Below are positions 51,288 through 58,138 of a DNA stretch of 64,000 nucleotides, piece after piece. The notes under the pieces are model-generated. The model was given only the letters and a program-made list of their open reading frames with translations, was not told where the DNA came from and did not search any database. Made by a program: the position numbers and the translations under genes. Source of the DNA: Bryobacterales bacterium (lineage in GTDB: Bacteria; Acidobacteriota; Terriglobia; Bryobacterales; Bryobacteraceae); contig PLOR01000118.1 in assembly GCA_003142185.1 (NCBI GenBank), positions 1 through 64,000 of the forward strand. Direction: 5' to 3'. Numbering within the stretch: the first letter of the stretch is position 1; each line of letters starts with the position of its first letter.

Positions 51288-51865
51288 AACCACTGCTGCT
51301 GTTAACGGCCGCGTTGGCCGCCTCTTTCGTGTGCGCTGCTGGAGATGCCGCCATCGCCGCCATTGAAGCCGGCAATCTGCGGCAGTTGCTGGCGGTGCAC
51401 CGCATCTTCGTGGACCGGCTCACCGGCGGCGATACCGCTGCGCAAATGCGCGACATCCTCATCAGCAGCCTGGCCGCTTCCAAGCTATTCGTCCTCACCG
51501 AAAAGGAGGAGCGTGCCGACGCCGTGCTGCGCGGCGCGGCCGAAGACCTGGTCTTCACCGAAACGCACCAATCGTCCGACGGCATCAACGCACACATGAA
51601 CCTGAGCACGCGCGCGGGTACCGGGTATTACTCCAAGGGCAACGCAGCCGGCCTGGGGATCGGCGACAACGAATCGGACCACTCCGCCGAGCGCCGCCAT
51701 GAGGCGCTCGCCGCCGTCCGCCTGGTCAACAAAGACGGCGACGTCATTTGGTCCACCACGCAGGAGAGCCTCGGCGCCAGGTTCCACGGCGCCAGCGCCG
51801 ACGTAGCGGAGAAGATTACATCGCAGTTGAAGGAAGACTTCGACCGGGCGGGGAAGGGCCAGTAG
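51284..51865 (+). CDS. Secreted hypothetical protein, partner of the preceding gene
   Basis: A 193-aa exported protein (signal MKPLLLLTAALAASFVCA). The mature part begins with a helical stretch, then LISSLAASKLFVLTEKEERADAVLRGAAEDLVF, and ends RRHEALAAVRLVNKDGDVIWSTTQESLGARFHGASADVAEKITSQLKEDF, which recalls the curli-secretion CsgG or TolB-N type fold used for envelope assembly. The family name is not certain. It is translationally coupled to the secreted protein before it, and the stops of this gene and of the M56 gene face each other 63 bp apart. Confidence 0.68.
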   Translation: MKPLLLLTAALAASFVCAAGDAAIAAIEAGNLRQLLAVHRIFVDRLTGGDTAAQMRDILISSLAASKLFVLTEKEERADAVLRGAAEDLVFTETHQSSDGINAHMNLSTRAGTGYYSKGNAAGLGIGDNESDHSAERRHEALAAVRLVNKDGDVIWSTTQESLGARFHGASADVAEKITSQLKEDFDRAGKGQ

Positions 51866-51928
51866 GCGCATCGCGGCACTTCCCGGCTTGTAGCGGCCGG
51901 GCATGCGTGGCCCTCACAGAGAGAACAG

Positions 51929-54262
51929 TCACTGCGTTCGGACGGGATGGTAGCCCGCCGCTTCGAGCGCTGCCTTCGCCTTGGCGAGGGAAGCCTCATC
52001 CGGAAACGGTCCCACCAGCACTTGTGTCAGGCTGGGCCGGTCCGCCCGGACGGGACACGTAGTTACCGGAAAGCCCTTGGCGCGAAGCGATTGGGCGACG
52101 AATTCCGCGGCATCGCTGGCACCCGCCATCACCTGCCAAGAGGACCCGTGCGACGCCGGCGCCGCAGTCATGCGGAAGTCTCCCGTGCGCCCAGGATCGG
52201 TAAACTCTACCACTACGCCAACTCCCAGTCCCTCGATGTGCCTGTAAAGCCAGGCTTGGCGGGGCAGGCTCTCCCCACGGTGGTCGTCAATCTCATCCGG
52301 CGGCCCGTACACGATATAAATGCGGCCGCGATCGGTCCTCCACCCGGGAACGCTCGACGCGAAGTGCTCGTTCGCGTAAGCGATGCGCCGGTAGTGCTCT
52401 TCCTTGAACTCGTTCTCTGCGGTGTCTGGCGTCGGGTCGCGTCGCGCCCAGAACCTCTCGATGAACTGGTCGCGCTCTTCATCAGTTCTCAAGGCGAGGA
52501 AAACGCGCCGTTCATCGAGAGTGATAATGTACGCCACATCTTCGTTCAGCCATTTTTGGAAAGCGGACCCGGATTCAGCCAGGGCCTGCGGCCGCGGCGT
52601 CTCCGGCGGCTCGGCCTGCGCACGCAAGCTCTCGTTCCCTTGGCCCCAATACTTCGCTGCGCGGTCGAATTCTCTCTCTGCCTGCTGCAATTGCTTCTCG
52701 ATTTCCTTGAGCGTCCTATCGCCGATCGCCGCCCGCGCCTGCCGCAGCGCCATGTCCGCCTGTGCCATCTGCCGCTGCCGGAGCGCTTCATCGAGCTTTC
52801 CGTTGGCGAACAACGCATCGAGTTCCTGCAATTGCTTGTCGGCTTGCTGGAGCGCCCGCTCCTGCTGCTGGACTAGTTGCTGCGATGCTCCCGCCTGCTG
52901 CTCCGCCGCCAGTTGCTTGAGGAGGGCTTCCAGCCGCTGATCGTCGAGAAGTTTCTGCGATTTTCCCGCCTGAGACTCCAGTTCCTTGAGCGCGGCATCC
53001 GCCTTCCGCAGTAGCTCGTCCGCCTGCGCGAAATCATGCGGATGCCCGCTGGCGTTCTTCAACGCGCGGTCGAGCTCCGCAGCGTTGCGCTGGAGCAGTT
53101 CCTGCGCTTTCGCGGCGGCTTGCTCCGCATCCTGGATGTCCTTCTGCTTTCCCGCCAGCAGATCCTCTAACTCTGCGAGGCTCCGGCGCGCCGACTCAGT
53201 TTTCTGGGCCGGTTCCTGCTTGTCCGCTGACGATTCGGCCGGCGGAGTGTGCTGCGCGAAGCTCCGGGCCGGTGGCCACACCACCAAAGCGGCAGCAACG
53301 GCGGCCACCAGCACTAAGGTGCCCGCCAGCGCCGAGGCTCGGGCACTGGGAACCCGCGCGGGCGCGGGCTCACCTAGCAGTCTGCGAATGCGTCTCACCA
53401 GGTTTCCTCCATTGGCCGCTGCTGCGGCGTAGGCCGCCGGCCACCGGCTCTGCTCCAACGTCGTCAGCGCCGCGGCATACGCGCGCGCGTCTGGCCGCAG
53501 CGCCACCACCACATCGTCGCAAGCGAATTCGCGCTCGGCGCGCACCACCGCGCTGATCCACCACGCCGCCGGGTGGAAGAAGAACAACCCTTCGATCAGA
53601 CTCTGCGCCACGCTGACCAGGTAATCCGCGCGCCGGATGTGGGCCAGTTCGTGGATCAGGATGGCCTCCACCTGTTCCGCGCTCAGGCCAGCAAGCGCGC
53701 CAAGCGGCATCAGAATCACCGGACGCCAGTAGCCGATCACTTGCGGCACGCAAGCCAGACAGGATTCGAGCAACTCGACCGGCTGCGAAACGCCCACCGC
53801 GCCGGCAAGTTCGCGAAGGCGCTGTTGCCACTCAGCGGGCGCCGCACAAACACCGAGCCGGCGCATGCGGTCGACGCGCGCCCATCCCGCGAGGCGAAAA
53901 ACGTAAAACAGGATCACGCCGCCCATCCATAACGGCGCGAGCCACGCCAGCCGGTCGACAGGCGCGGCGGGCACGCCCTGGGCGATCACTGGATTGAAGA
54001 CCATCCGCGGCGCCACCGGCGGCAGTACCACACTCGATGGGCCGGCGCCCAGCGACAGTGCCAGCGTAATACCGAACACAAGCGGCAGGAGGAGCAAACA
54101 GGCCGTAGCCGCCTGGTGACGCCACCTCGAGCTTCGCCCCGCGCCCAGGAACAAGGCCGCCCGGAGCGCCGCGGCCAGCAGCGCGCCTTGCCACAAGAAA
54201 TGCGCCAGTGCCCGCCCCAGCGCGTGAGCCAGCGGAGCGGCGAGCCAGTGATCGAGTGTCAT
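51929..54262 (-). CDS. M56 peptidase (BlaR1-like) fused to coiled coil, GWxTD and SPOR domains
   Basis: A 777-aa multidomain protein. Residues 1-330 are a BlaR1/MecR1-like M56 part with several transmembrane helices and the zinc motif HELAH (204-208) in EAILIHELAHIRRADY. About 350-545 is a long Gln/Ala-rich coiled coil. About 568-700 is a GWxTD domain (GWRTD at 640-644, IYIVYGPPDEIDDH). Residues 706-777 read like a SPOR domain (WQVMAGASDAAEFVAQSLRAKGFPV...VLVGPFPDEASLAKAKAALEAAGY), a fold that binds denuded peptidoglycan. The BlaI-type repressor gene overlaps its start (ATGA). BlaR1 proteins cut a repressor when a ligand binds outside, so a wall-damage sensor is inferred. Confidence 0.85.
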   Translation of the reverse strand: MTLDHWLAAPLAHALGRALAHFLWQGALLAAALRAALFLGAGRSSRWRHQAATACLLLLPLVFGITLALSLGAGPSSVVLPPVAPRMVFNPVIAQGVPAAPVDRLAWLAPLWMGGVILFYVFRLAGWARVDRMRRLGVCAAPAEWQQRLRELAGAVGVSQPVELLESCLACVPQVIGYWRPVILMPLGALAGLSAEQVEAILIHELAHIRRADYLVSVAQSLIEGLFFFHPAAWWISAVVRAEREFACDDVVVALRPDARAYAAALTTLEQSRWPAAYAAAAANGGNLVRRIRRLLGEPAPARVPSARASALAGTLVLVAAVAAALVVWPPARSFAQHTPPAESSADKQEPAQKTESARRSLAELEDLLAGKQKDIQDAEQAAAKAQELLQRNAAELDRALKNASGHPHDFAQADELLRKADAALKELESQAGKSQKLLDDQRLEALLKQLAAEQQAGASQQLVQQQERALQQADKQLQELDALFANGKLDEALRQRQMAQADMALRQARAAIGDRTLKEIEKQLQQAEREFDRAAKYWGQGNESLRAQAEPPETPRPQALAESGSAFQKWLNEDVAYIITLDERRVFLALRTDEERDQFIERFWARRDPTPDTAENEFKEEHYRRIAYANEHFASSVPGWRTDRGRIYIVYGPPDEIDDHRGESLPRQAWLYRHIEGLGVGVVVEFTDPGRTGDFRMTAAPASHGSSWQVMAGASDAAEFVAQSLRAKGFPVTTCPVRADRPSLTQVLVGPFPDEASLAKAKAALEAAGYHPVRTQ

Positions 54263-54651
54263 CGCTTCTCCTCCTCATATTCCCCGACCAGCTTGCGCAG
54301 TTCGGCCAGTTCGGCCGCCGACGCCTTCCGCGCCGCCAGGGCTCCCACCAGTAGGCTGCTGGCGGAGCCGGCGAAGGCCCGCTCCAGTAAGTCGCCGGCC
54401 AGTTGCCGCTGGGTCCATTCGCGCGGCCGGCTGGCGGAATAGATGTGCGCCCGTTGCTTTTCGTCGCGCTTCACGAGCCCCTTGTCGGTCATGATTTGCA
54501 TCAGCTTCAAGACCGTGGTGTAGTGCGCCGGGCGGCGGCGGGAAATAGTGGAATGCACTTCGCGGACGGTGGCCGGTCCGCGGCTCCACAGGACGGTCAG
54601 AATTTCCAGTTCGGCGTCGGTGGGCCGCGGCAGATCGTTTGATTTTACCAT
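54259..54651 (-). CDS. BlaI/MecI-type repressor
   Basis: A 130-aa winged-helix repressor: PTDAELEILTVLWSRGPATVREVHSTISRRRPAHYTTVLKLMQIMTDKGLVKRDEKQRAHIYSA, followed by a helical dimerisation tail. BlaI-family proteins bind palindromic operators as dimers and are inactivated by cleavage by an M56 partner. The partner gene follows with a 4-bp overlap. No beta-lactamase is nearby, so the regulon probably concerns something else. Confidence 0.92.
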   Translation of the reverse strand: MVKSNDLPRPTDAELEILTVLWSRGPATVREVHSTISRRRPAHYTTVLKLMQIMTDKGLVKRDEKQRAHIYSASRPREWTQRQLAGDLLERAFAGSASSLLVGALAARKASAAELAELRKLVGEYEEEKR

Positions 54652-54699
54652 CTACGAAGACCTTACTACGAAGGTGTTCGTTGGTCAAGAGGGAAAAAC

Positions 54700-54719
54700 G
54701 GGCAAGCTAAAGCATGCCC
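54700..54719. repeat. Short hairpin repeat, family B copy 3
   Basis: Exact 20-mer GGGCAAGCTAAAGCATGCCC, the same as at 5454 and 41818. It ends 5 bp before a TATAAT box and 18 bp before the ATG of the secreted GH123-like gene, so its hairpin overlaps the -35 area of any promoter there. Confidence 0.8.
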
Positions 54720-54724
54720 CACCT

Positions 54725-54730
54725 TATAAT
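54725..54730 (+). promoter_or_regulatory. TATAAT -10 element placed for a leaderless mRNA
   Basis: A perfect TATAAT at 54725-54730 ends 6 nt before the ATG at 54737. Standard -10 spacing would put transcription start at the A of the ATG. No Shine-Dalgarno is visible before this ATG. No good -35 is seen at 17 bp, where the hairpin repeat lies instead. Confidence 0.45.
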
Positions 54731-54736
54731 CGAAGC

Positions 54737-57700
54737 ATGTCTCTCGCCCGCGGGGCACTGGCCGCCCTGCGCATTCTGCTGCTGGCCTGGACCGTCGTCC
54801 TCTGGGCTCCGCTAGCCACCGAGAACAACGCATCAGATGGCACGGGCAACCTGGCCGCCAATCCTTCGTTTGAAATCCTCAAGGAGCGGGACGCGGCTGG
54901 CGGCATGTTCGCGGATTGGGACGCTTCGAAATCGCAGGGCGGCTGTTCGTTCGCGGTCGGGCTGGTGGCGCACAGTGGCCGCACTTCGGCGCTGCTCGAT
55001 TGCGCATCGGCCGGCGAAATCCGCCTCGGCCAGCAACGGGAGCTTGCGCCGGGCCGGTATTCGATCAGCGCTTTCCTGCGCGGGCTCGATATTTCGAACG
55101 GCGACGCGGATCGCGCCACCGAATTCACCTTCAACGGCCGACGCATGGACCTCGAGAAAGCCGGCACTTTCGGCTGGACGCGGTTTACCTATGTCGCCGA
55201 GCTGACGAAACGAACCAGGACCGGCCCGTCATTCGCGTTGCGTGCGCCGGGCTTGCTGTGGATTGACGACGTATCGGTCGAGCGCGTGGGCAGCGGTGTC
55301 GAGTTGACCGCTGCAGCCGAGTGGGGTAATCAGGAAGCGCCCATTGCGCCACCGGGCCCGCTTGGTGGTGGCGAAGTCCGCTGTTCCAAATGCCGCTACC
55401 GGAACATGCCGGCCTGGAAGAGATGCTACGCCTGCGGCACCGCTCTTGCAGACAGGCTGGCGGAAACTGCTGGGCCGCCAGAGAGGCTCATCACTTCTTT
55501 CGAAGAAAGCAATCCCTTCACGGGCGGCGTGGTGGTCGAGGAACACGCGACCGACGGCCGAAAGGCGCTACGCATCGACAGCCACTACGTCGCGATGCGG
55601 CAACCGCAGGACTGGTCCGGCTACGACTTGTTCAAGATGGACCTGTACACGGACGCGCGCGACCCGCTGCCGCTGACGCTTGAATTCTGGGACCGCGGCA
55701 CGACCGGCTATTGGACCAGAGTAAATTACAACGCCGTCGCGCCGCCAGGCCAGAGTACGCTGACCGTTCCCTTGCAGGGATTGGCTGTCGGCGAGAGGAA
55801 CCGCCCCGGCCGCAGCCTGACGCTCAACGCCATCACACGCGTGGTGGTGGCACTCGGCGACACGCCCGCCGCGCCGCTCTTCCTCTCCAGGCTCCGCCTG
55901 GAGCGGGATGCAGCCGTCCGGCAGGCCCAGTTCGACGGGCTGCTCGCGTTCGCTCTCGGCAGCGGACCGGCGATGGATGGCTTCACCGCTATCACGCCCG
56001 CCACGCTCTACAATCCGGGCCGCGGATACGGGCTGAAGGATGCGCGCGTCTGGCGGGCGGTGAACTCGCTCGATCCGGATCCACTGTATCGCCGTTCTCT
56101 TGCCATCGAATCGGGCGGCCTGGCGGTGGACGTGCCGAACGGAAAATACCGCGTCTTCGTCAATATGGACAGCCCGGCGGGATACTGGGGCGAATACCAG
56201 ATCTATCGCGACCGCTCGATTCGCGCGCAGGGGAAAGTGGTGGTTTCCGAGCACCAGGATTTCGCGTCGTTCCGCAAGAAGTACTTTCAATTCTGGGACC
56301 AGGACGATCTGCCGGCCGACAACACTTTCGACAAGTACGACCGCGCGCACTTTCACGAGAAGGTGTTCGACGTGACCGTGAGCAACGGCCAACTGTACCT
56401 CGAATTCACGGGCGAGAAGTGGGCGTGCAGCGTTTCCGCCATCGTCATCTTTCCCGTGGCCCAAGCCGCCCGGGGCGCGCGTTTCCTCGACGTTGTGCGG
56501 GAAAAGCGGCGCTCTTATTTCGACAACGCCTACAAACGTGTGCTGCACCGGCCGGCCGGTGATGCGCTCCAGCCAACCGCCGAGGATCGCGCGCGCGGGT
56601 ATGTGGTGTTCCATCGCGATTTCATGAAGGACGTGTACTATGACGACGCGCCCTTCCGCGGCGAATTGGTGAATGAGCTGACAGCGGAAGCTTTCGCGGG
56701 CCAGGACGCGCCAGTGACGGTGTCGATCCTCCCGCTCAAGGACCTGGGCCGCAGCACCGTTACGGTGAGCGCATTGAGCGGGCCACGCGCCGCCATTCCA
56801 GCCGCCGCGATCGACGCCGGATATGTCTCTTACCGTCTCAGCCGCGTGACGGCGGATGGCGCTGTTTACACCATCACGCCGCGGCTCATCCTTCCGCGAA
56901 ACACCGTCAACATGCCGCAATCCGTGGCGCGGACGTTCTGGTTGACCGTCCGCGCGCCGGCCACCGCCAGCCCCGGCGTTTACACCGGCCAGGTGACTTT
57001 CACGCCGCAGAAGGGCGCGCCGCTGCGGATTCCGCTGCGGTTCACCGTCCGCAAGGGAACGCTGGACGCCGCGGACATACCGGTGGGTCCATTTGGCGGC
57101 GGCATCGGCATACCGTGGTTCGCGGACGATCCGCACACCCTCTCCTTCGGCTCGGAAATGACCGCCAAGAGCCTGCGCTCGCTGCGCGCGCATGGCTTCA
57201 CGATGTTTTCCGGCGTGCCGCATGTTGCCTACCGCGGTTTCACGAATGGCGAACCAGTGCTCGATTTCGATGTCGCGGATCGCGAGATGCGAGACGCCAA
57301 GGGTGACGGGTTCCTGGCCGTGAATTCCTATGGCGCCGGCGTGATCGGCCTGGACCCATACCGTCAGGACACGGCGAAGATGGCTGAAGCGGGCTTCACC
57401 GATTACAGCGATTTTATCAAGGCGGTCTACACCGCTATAGAGAGCCACGCACGCGAGAATGGCTGGCTGCCGGTGTACTGGAACCTCGGCGACGAGCCGG
57501 CCGGCTATGCGATCCAGCAATCGATCGACAATGCTAAGGCCTACCGCCGCGCGTTTCCCGAGGGACCTCCTTTCTTCACCGCGGCATTGAGCCTGTGGGG
57601 GCACGGCGAAAGCGACCCGGATTTCGTTCTCGCGCGGACGTTGCACGCTCCCGCCCTGGCTTCCTACAGCGAACGGGAACTCAGGCTCCTGCGGCAGCGC

Positions 57701-58138
57701 GGTGGCGGGTGGGCGTCTTACAACGGCGGCAATCGCTGGACCTATGGCGCACATCTTTACAAAGCCGCCAAGGAGTTCGGCTTGCAGTTCCGCCTGGCCT
57801 GGCACTGGAACGCGGTCGCGGGCGATCCCTACTACGCGCTCGATTGCCGCGAGGACGATTATGCCTGGGCGAACGCAGCTCCGGACGGCCAACTCGTGCC
57901 GTCAGTGGAATTCGCCCGCATCAGCGCCGGCCTCGACGATTACCGCTCGCTCATTACACTAGCGCGGTTGGCCCACGCGAAATCCGTCACACCGGCCGGG
58001 AAATCGGCCCAGCGCCTGATCGCCACGCGGATGGCGGCATTTCATTTGGATGATCGCGATCACGACCGCCTGTTCGGAGTGGACGATTGGGCGGCATTTC
58101 GCCGGCAGGTGGTGAATGCGATTGAAGAGTTGCAATAG
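54737..58138 (+). CDS. Secreted GH123/DUF4091-like protein with an internal zinc ribbon
   Basis: A 1133-aa protein. A hydrophobic N-terminus (LAALRILLLAWTVVLWAPLA) serves as signal or anchor. A beta-sandwich carbohydrate-binding-like domain follows (about 35-185), then a CxxC-x10-CxxC zinc ribbon (C216, C219, C230, C233). After more beta-domains comes a C-terminal barrel like DUF4091/GH123 enzymes (beta-N-acetylgalactosaminidase-like), with YWNLGDEPAG (about 915-924) carrying the expected Asp-Glu pair, and GLDDYRSLITLARLA near the end. A zinc ribbon in an exported protein is odd. Substrate unknown. Confidence 0.78.
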   Translation: MSLARGALAALRILLLAWTVVLWAPLATENNASDGTGNLAANPSFEILKERDAAGGMFADWDASKSQGGCSFAVGLVAHSGRTSALLDCASAGEIRLGQQRELAPGRYSISAFLRGLDISNGDADRATEFTFNGRRMDLEKAGTFGWTRFTYVAELTKRTRTGPSFALRAPGLLWIDDVSVERVGSGVELTAAAEWGNQEAPIAPPGPLGGGEVRCSKCRYRNMPAWKRCYACGTALADRLAETAGPPERLITSFEESNPFTGGVVVEEHATDGRKALRIDSHYVAMRQPQDWSGYDLFKMDLYTDARDPLPLTLEFWDRGTTGYWTRVNYNAVAPPGQSTLTVPLQGLAVGERNRPGRSLTLNAITRVVVALGDTPAAPLFLSRLRLERDAAVRQAQFDGLLAFALGSGPAMDGFTAITPATLYNPGRGYGLKDARVWRAVNSLDPDPLYRRSLAIESGGLAVDVPNGKYRVFVNMDSPAGYWGEYQIYRDRSIRAQGKVVVSEHQDFASFRKKYFQFWDQDDLPADNTFDKYDRAHFHEKVFDVTVSNGQLYLEFTGEKWACSVSAIVIFPVAQAARGARFLDVVREKRRSYFDNAYKRVLHRPAGDALQPTAEDRARGYVVFHRDFMKDVYYDDAPFRGELVNELTAEAFAGQDAPVTVSILPLKDLGRSTVTVSALSGPRAAIPAAAIDAGYVSYRLSRVTADGAVYTITPRLILPRNTVNMPQSVARTFWLTVRAPATASPGVYTGQVTFTPQKGAPLRIPLRFTVRKGTLDAADIPVGPFGGGIGIPWFADDPHTLSFGSEMTAKSLRSLRAHGFTMFSGVPHVAYRGFTNGEPVLDFDVADREMRDAKGDGFLAVNSYGAGVIGLDPYRQDTAKMAEAGFTDYSDFIKAVYTAIESHARENGWLPVYWNLGDEPAGYAIQQSIDNAKAYRRAFPEGPPFFTAALSLWGHGESDPDFVLARTLHAPALASYSERELRLLRQRGGGWASYNGGNRWTYGAHLYKAAKEFGLQFRLAWHWNAVAGDPYYALDCREDDYAWANAAPDGQLVPSVEFARISAGLDDYRSLITLARLAHAKSVTPAGKSAQRLIATRMAAFHLDDRDHDRLFGVDDWAAFRRQVVNAIEELQ

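Follow-up and report, generated by a model that had tools for sequence, protein, structure and literature searches.

The operon at 51929–54651 on the reverse strand of the 64,000-nucleotide stretch of Bryobacterales DNA analysed here (the window) probably encodes an autoregulated, BlaR1-like membrane protease receptor in which a periplasmic module of coiled coil, GWxTD and SPOR domains takes the place of the penicillin-sensing domain. BlaR1 is the textbook penicillin receptor, and the protein described here is a SPOR-tipped variant of the BlaR1–BlaI kind within a modular receptor family. Judging from related promoters and from BlaR1, BlaI would bind a dyad within its own promoter and repress the blaI–M56 operon until a periplasmic event, read through the outer module, alters the last membrane helix; the protease at the cytoplasmic face would then become active and inactivate BlaI, raising expression of the operon. 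The SPOR domain would hold the receptor on peptidoglycan, tethering it or placing it at remodelled wall.

The receptor gene (P0001, 51929–54262, reverse strand) was delineated from its open reading frame and its Pfam and NCBIfam matches and encodes 777 residues. Upstream lies a blaI-type repressor gene (P0002, 54259–54651, reverse strand) for a protein of 130 residues (Pfam Penicillinase_R, 2.6e-27), and the two genes overlap by 4 bp (54259–54262); re-reading of the open reading frames returned the coordinates, strand and overlap given in an earlier note on this DNA. The same note had reported the absence of a beta-lactamase, which holds for the seven neighbouring genes of the window covered by a Pfam scan: none matched a beta-lactamase family. 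The 5.79-Mb genome, that of a soil bacterium, falls among Bryobacteraceae-like Acidobacteriota, with Bryobacterales and Solibacteraceae as its closest named contigs. Its M56 and GWxTD genes number two each, and its BlaI and SPOR genes three each. A foreign composition of the operon was rejected, its G+C content (0.65–0.66) lying inside the range of the neighbours (0.62–0.68), as was a plasmid origin, none of the plasmid records covering most of the 777-residue protein. The GH123-N-like gene at 54737–58138 has a paralogue with 64% identity at G000:C82.

The M56 domain of the receptor spans residues 105–293 (53384–53950, reverse strand; Pfam Peptidase_M56, E 7e-30) and harbours HELAH at residues 204–208, so that both the Pfam match and the motif position confirm the M56 protease claimed previously. 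HELAH204–208, D213, E245, D249 and R294 are invariant across 31 aligned fusions and Y262 is nearly so; they match the catalytic set given for BlaR1 (PMC9834060), and the two M56 gluzincin motifs, HExxH and ExxxD, are both present. A sequence search of the PDB with the 777-residue receptor yielded no credible match. The full-length AlphaFold2 model (31-row alignment, mean pLDDT 78.7, pTM 0.49) has Staphylococcus aureus BlaR1 (8exp–8ext) as its top PDB matches, but with so low a pTM the placement of the domains relative to one another should not be read from it. Four membrane helices are predicted, the hydropathy peaks coinciding with helices of the model, and the last one comprises residues 306–328 (53279–53347, reverse strand; hydropathy 2.47, charge bias, AlphaFold2 helix). 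Positive charges favour the cytoplasmic side for the first loop and for the region after helix 3. The predicted topology is N-out/C-out, with the SPOR end and everything after the last helix outside, as is the C-terminal part of BlaR1 (PMC9834060).

Following the last helix, residues 352–550 (52613–53209, reverse strand) form a long helical coiled-coil region, assigned from AlphaFold2 secondary structure with moderate pLDDT, and residues 571–676 (52235–52552, reverse strand) form a GWxTD domain (PF20094 at residues 572–676, 6e-18; TIGR04514, 6e-36) that scores above the curated cut-offs of both Pfam and NCBIfam, as the M56, SPOR and Penicillinase_R matches do above theirs; the earlier note had named both elements. 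A similar coiled coil lies between helix 4 and GWxTD in the relative L041. Our search of freely accessible papers, preprints aside, found none naming GWxTD. The stand-alone GWxTD gene of the genome (L283:245–4404) follows genes that resemble, by eye, those for an ECF sigma factor and its anti-sigma factor.

The operon belongs to a large family in Bryobacterales in which one membrane protease, paired with BlaI, carries interchangeable outer modules. Across 98 Bryobacterales genomes, the number of M56 genes ranges from 0 to 21, with expansions to 21 genes in G475, 21 in G492 and 17 in G476, and blaI lies directly upstream on the same strand for 108 of 116 distinct M56 frames. Among 77 proteins taken from the M56 match list regardless of tail type, the tails comprised TIGR03435/DUF3738 (23), TonB_C (22), GWxTD (16, NCBIfam), TPR (at least 10) and CarboxypepD_reg (10), and single members carried thioredoxin, SLBB or POTRA. 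One frame, L037:1048–2511, fuses M56 directly to a thioredoxin/AhpC-TSA domain and is possibly a periplasmic redox receptor. In a tree of the M56 parts (116 rows), whose bootstrap has not settled and whose support values are rough, the tails are clustered yet repeatedly switched, with 18 changes against a shuffled mean of 63. Module swapping also occurs between neighbours: two tandem M56 genes in the genome of L153 share 66% identity across the M56 part (413 aligned residues), yet one ends in TPR–GWxTD and the other in SLBB. The setting is therefore wider than the earlier note assumed. An M56–GWxTD protein is ordinary for this order, the coiled coil and SPOR domain are additions to it, and only the SPOR end is unusual. 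Searches of the literature, again limited to freely accessible papers without preprints, found no description of M56 with non-penicillin modules.

The blaI promoter (54652–54688, reverse strand) consists of TTGACC (54688–54683), a 17-nt spacer and TAAGGT (54665–54660), 8 nt from the ATG, in the order TTGACC-AACGAACACCTTCGTAG-TAAGGT-CTTCGTAG-ATG. A strict consensus promoter scanner did not flag it. Within the GWxTD clade, 29 of 33 blaI promoters have TTGA and TAnnnT elements 16–18 nt apart just before the ATG. Between the -35 and -10 elements, the spacer contains the dyad ACGAA-N4-TTCGT (54668–54681, no strand assigned), which has a single match in the genome and recurs in relatives, and a further half-site, CTTCGTAG (54652–54659, reverse strand), directly precedes the blaI ATG, a comparable half-site being found in 31 of the 33 promoters. 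Dyad arms match at 134 of 168 positions, compared with a mean of 123 for re-paired arms, a score reached by 0.1% of 2000 shuffles in a test that ignores the relatedness of the sequences. These comparisons show the dyad to be a conserved operator, to which BlaI would bind. Leaderless transcripts are suggested by the distance from the end of the -10 element to the ATG, usually 8 nt. Within 54652–54760, the -10-like elements of blaI (TAAGGT) and of the divergent gene (TATAAT) end 8 and about 6 nt, respectively, before the ATG, as in many relatives, and leaderless transcription may be usual here.

The operator occurs mainly where autoregulation would place it. WACGAANNNNTTCGTW has one site in the 5.79-Mb genome, at the blaI promoter. 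Across 200 family genomes, TACGAANNNNTTCGTAGTA has 26 exact sites, and a reversed-pattern control has none; blaI comes directly after 21 of these sites, and the remaining five lack a TTGAC element. A wider regulon was rejected: the genome holds four operator-like sites with at most two mismatches, against three for the reversed control, and none has a TTGAC element. Searching for operators, as proposed earlier, thus located the dyad upstream of blaI and no credible site elsewhere in the genome, and the operator scan of the 5.79-Mb genome found no BlaI target gene beyond the operon itself. As the single good operator is the operon's own, only autoregulation is visible and no wall-repair regulon is seen, although weaker or divergent operators with altered half-sites could be missed. 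The divergent gene at 54737 is disfavoured as a BlaI target: the sequence upstream of it, from position 54702 onward, is conserved in a sister species that has neither blaI nor the dyad at this site, so this gene is probably not controlled by BlaI.

This distribution of sites is also what would be expected if the periplasmic module were the output, with a structural or protective task in the cell envelope, and BlaI and the protease did no more than set its amount. Some tails of the family do have activities of their own, such as thioredoxin. We regard this alternative as possible but unlikely, because the protein retains the M56 catalytic residues and the C-out topology of a receptor, and because operators with weaker or divergent sequences may have escaped the scan that makes the operon appear to be the sole target.

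The C-terminal SPOR domain (residues 706–777; 51932–52147, reverse strand) was identified by Pfam (residues 717–773, E 2e-5; 25.2 bits, where the cut-off is 21), by model matches and by alignment. It was modelled separately from the full-length protein; a joint alignment with GWxTD rows had misplaced the SPOR rows. The AlphaFold2 model of residues 695–777 (24-row alignment, mean pLDDT 82) has the element order E-H-E-E-H-E, which is that of SPOR. In the PDB, the first four matches to this model are the SPOR domains of DedD, of CwlC and of RlpA, the last both free and bound to denuded glycan (Foldseek probability 1.00, yet E-values of just 0.005–0.01). The earlier note had named two outcomes that would refute its reading, and neither came about: a SPOR fold is predicted for the C-terminal residues, and the predicted topology puts the C-terminal domains outside rather than in the cytoplasm. 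The glycan-contact residues of SPOR domains are a Gln in beta-1 and a basic residue in beta-3 (PMC6895207). Q710, the equivalent of RlpA Q270, is invariant across the 24 aligned rows, and A713 corresponds to RlpA A273. The basic residue preceding V-x-V-G-P is Gln747 in the receptor; it is Arg in 23 of 23 compared relatives as well as in FtsN and DedD, and Lys in CwlC. The SPOR domain of RlpA binds denuded glycan, and losing one Arg weakens this binding without abolishing it (PMC6895207).

The closest relatives of the SPOR domain are single-helix DedD/FtsN-like proteins of Bryobacterales, one of which, encoded in the same genome, is 49% identical over the domain. Among the matches listed from 257 Bryobacterales genomes, there is no second GWxTD–SPOR tail, and three proteins (L147, L149, L150) have the order M56–TPR–SPOR. 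These form a separate, distant M56 clade (support 100/100 in the unsettled bootstrap, hence rough), which argues that SPOR joined M56 at least twice. Of the domain order described earlier next to blaI, M56–GWxTD is thus common, whereas the GWxTD–SPOR end was seen in one genome only. A SPOR domain found by search also lies in a frame at L151:3101–5542 that, by eye, combines it with a Ser/Thr protein kinase and one membrane helix ahead of it and a formylglycine-generating-enzyme-like domain after it.

The repressor belongs to the winged-helix Penicillinase_R family, adjoins the M56 gene and has BlaI and MecI as its PDB relatives. The Asn-Phe cleavage site of S. aureus BlaI (N101-F102, with Phe at P1') aligns with Gly-Ala within an SLLVGAL segment, and the P1' Phe is replaced by Ala in this class of BlaI proteins. 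With Gly-Ala in place of Asn-Phe, the cut site or the mode of inactivation would have to differ, and cleavage at a different site is possible. In Bacillus licheniformis, a muropeptide ligand of BlaI has been reported (PMC3305447); by analogy, a muropeptide might possibly be a ligand of the present BlaI.

The earlier note had suggested a circuit in which exposed glycan triggers cleavage of the repressor. Several of its parts stand, namely a BlaR1-type receptor with a replaced sensor, the pairing with BlaI, the periplasmic tail and the SPOR fold; glycan as trigger and cleavage of BlaI are conjectural, given Q747, the Ala at P1' and the one operator. A version in which peptide-free glycan bound by the SPOR domain itself activates the protease seems rather unlikely to us. 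It is consistent with the predicted fold, the conserved Q710, the Ala shared with RlpA, the glycan binding of the RlpA domain and the twofold recruitment of SPOR to M56, but the receptor has Gln where Arg is otherwise invariant, GWxTD and the coil separate SPOR from the membrane and no wall regulon is seen. Moreover, SPOR domains in known proteins serve mainly for localisation. Although SPOR may itself be an input, it most likely anchors the receptor on peptidoglycan or places it at remodelled wall, and we favour this role over glycan as the trigger, which is a minority reading. It is likewise doubtful that, within a large Acidobacteriota family of BlaI–M56 one-step receptors whose periplasmic modules can be swapped, this member senses either peptide-free glycan or, by way of a coiled coil anchored by SPOR, tension between wall and membrane, and signals by proteolysis of the repressor.

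A sister species, the source of the genus's other genome, retains the two flanks of the locus at 77–82% DNA identity but lacks the 2.85 kb (51849–54702) that hold blaI and the receptor gene. In their place it has 2.4 kb encoding LprI-like and GH19-like proteins. The operon was either gained in the present genome or lost in the sister species, and its absence there indicates that it is not essential. The site is variable, the genes in the sister species (L281:6458–8548) being for an LprI-like lysozyme inhibitor and a GH19-like protein. Such a history, the GWxTD–SPOR end in one genome only (among listed matches) and the change from Arg to Gln would all fit a recently captured SPOR domain that is decaying or a passive anchor with no influence on signalling. 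We consider this improbable, as the reading frame is uninterrupted, confidence in the predicted fold is good, the core SPOR residues are kept and a second M56 clade also carries SPOR. A classical beta-lactam receptor would account for the pairing of M56 with BlaI, but is highly implausible without a penicillin-binding or transpeptidase domain in Pfam or NCBIfam, without a beta-lactamase among the scanned neighbours and with no operator other than its own.

We therefore retain the autoregulated receptor with an exchanged periplasmic module as the favoured model, with Q747 in SPOR, the lack of the S. aureus P1' Phe in BlaI, the failure of the operator scan to find a target gene beyond the operon and the absence of the operon from this site in the sister species counting against it. 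The protease–repressor core of BlaR1 appears here as a general receptor platform with an exchanged outer part, in up to 21 copies per genome. This makes it testable what M56–BlaI systems sense outside drug resistance; the SPOR-tipped members are a natural place to seek direct sensing of cell-wall state, and the operator found at blaI is a ready reporter.

With the BlaR1/MecR1–BlaI/MecI systems of staphylococci and B. licheniformis, the operon shares the M56 gluzincin motifs HExxH and ExxxD, an adjacent blaI, four helices predicted in an N-out/C-out arrangement, an outer C-terminal domain and a BlaI operator at its own promoter. It differs from them in having an outer coiled coil–GWxTD–SPOR module rather than a penicillin-binding domain, in showing no beta-lactamase or PBP2a target (in the seven neighbours and the operator scan), and in a BlaI that lacks the cleavage Phe and has a different operator sequence. 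The SPOR fold and conserved Gln are common to DedD, FtsN, RlpA and CwlC, whereas the receptor SPOR is fused to a membrane protease and has Gln at the basic position. The M56–TPR–SPOR proteins share M56, an upstream blaI and a C-terminal SPOR domain with the receptor, but carry TPR instead of the coil and GWxTD. The M56–GWxTD proteins (L018, L019 and L042 among others) share its M56 clade, the GWxTD domain and the layout of blaI and operator; these relatives have no SPOR domain, mostly lack a coiled coil, L041 being an exception, and in some cases carry TonB_C or POTRA instead.
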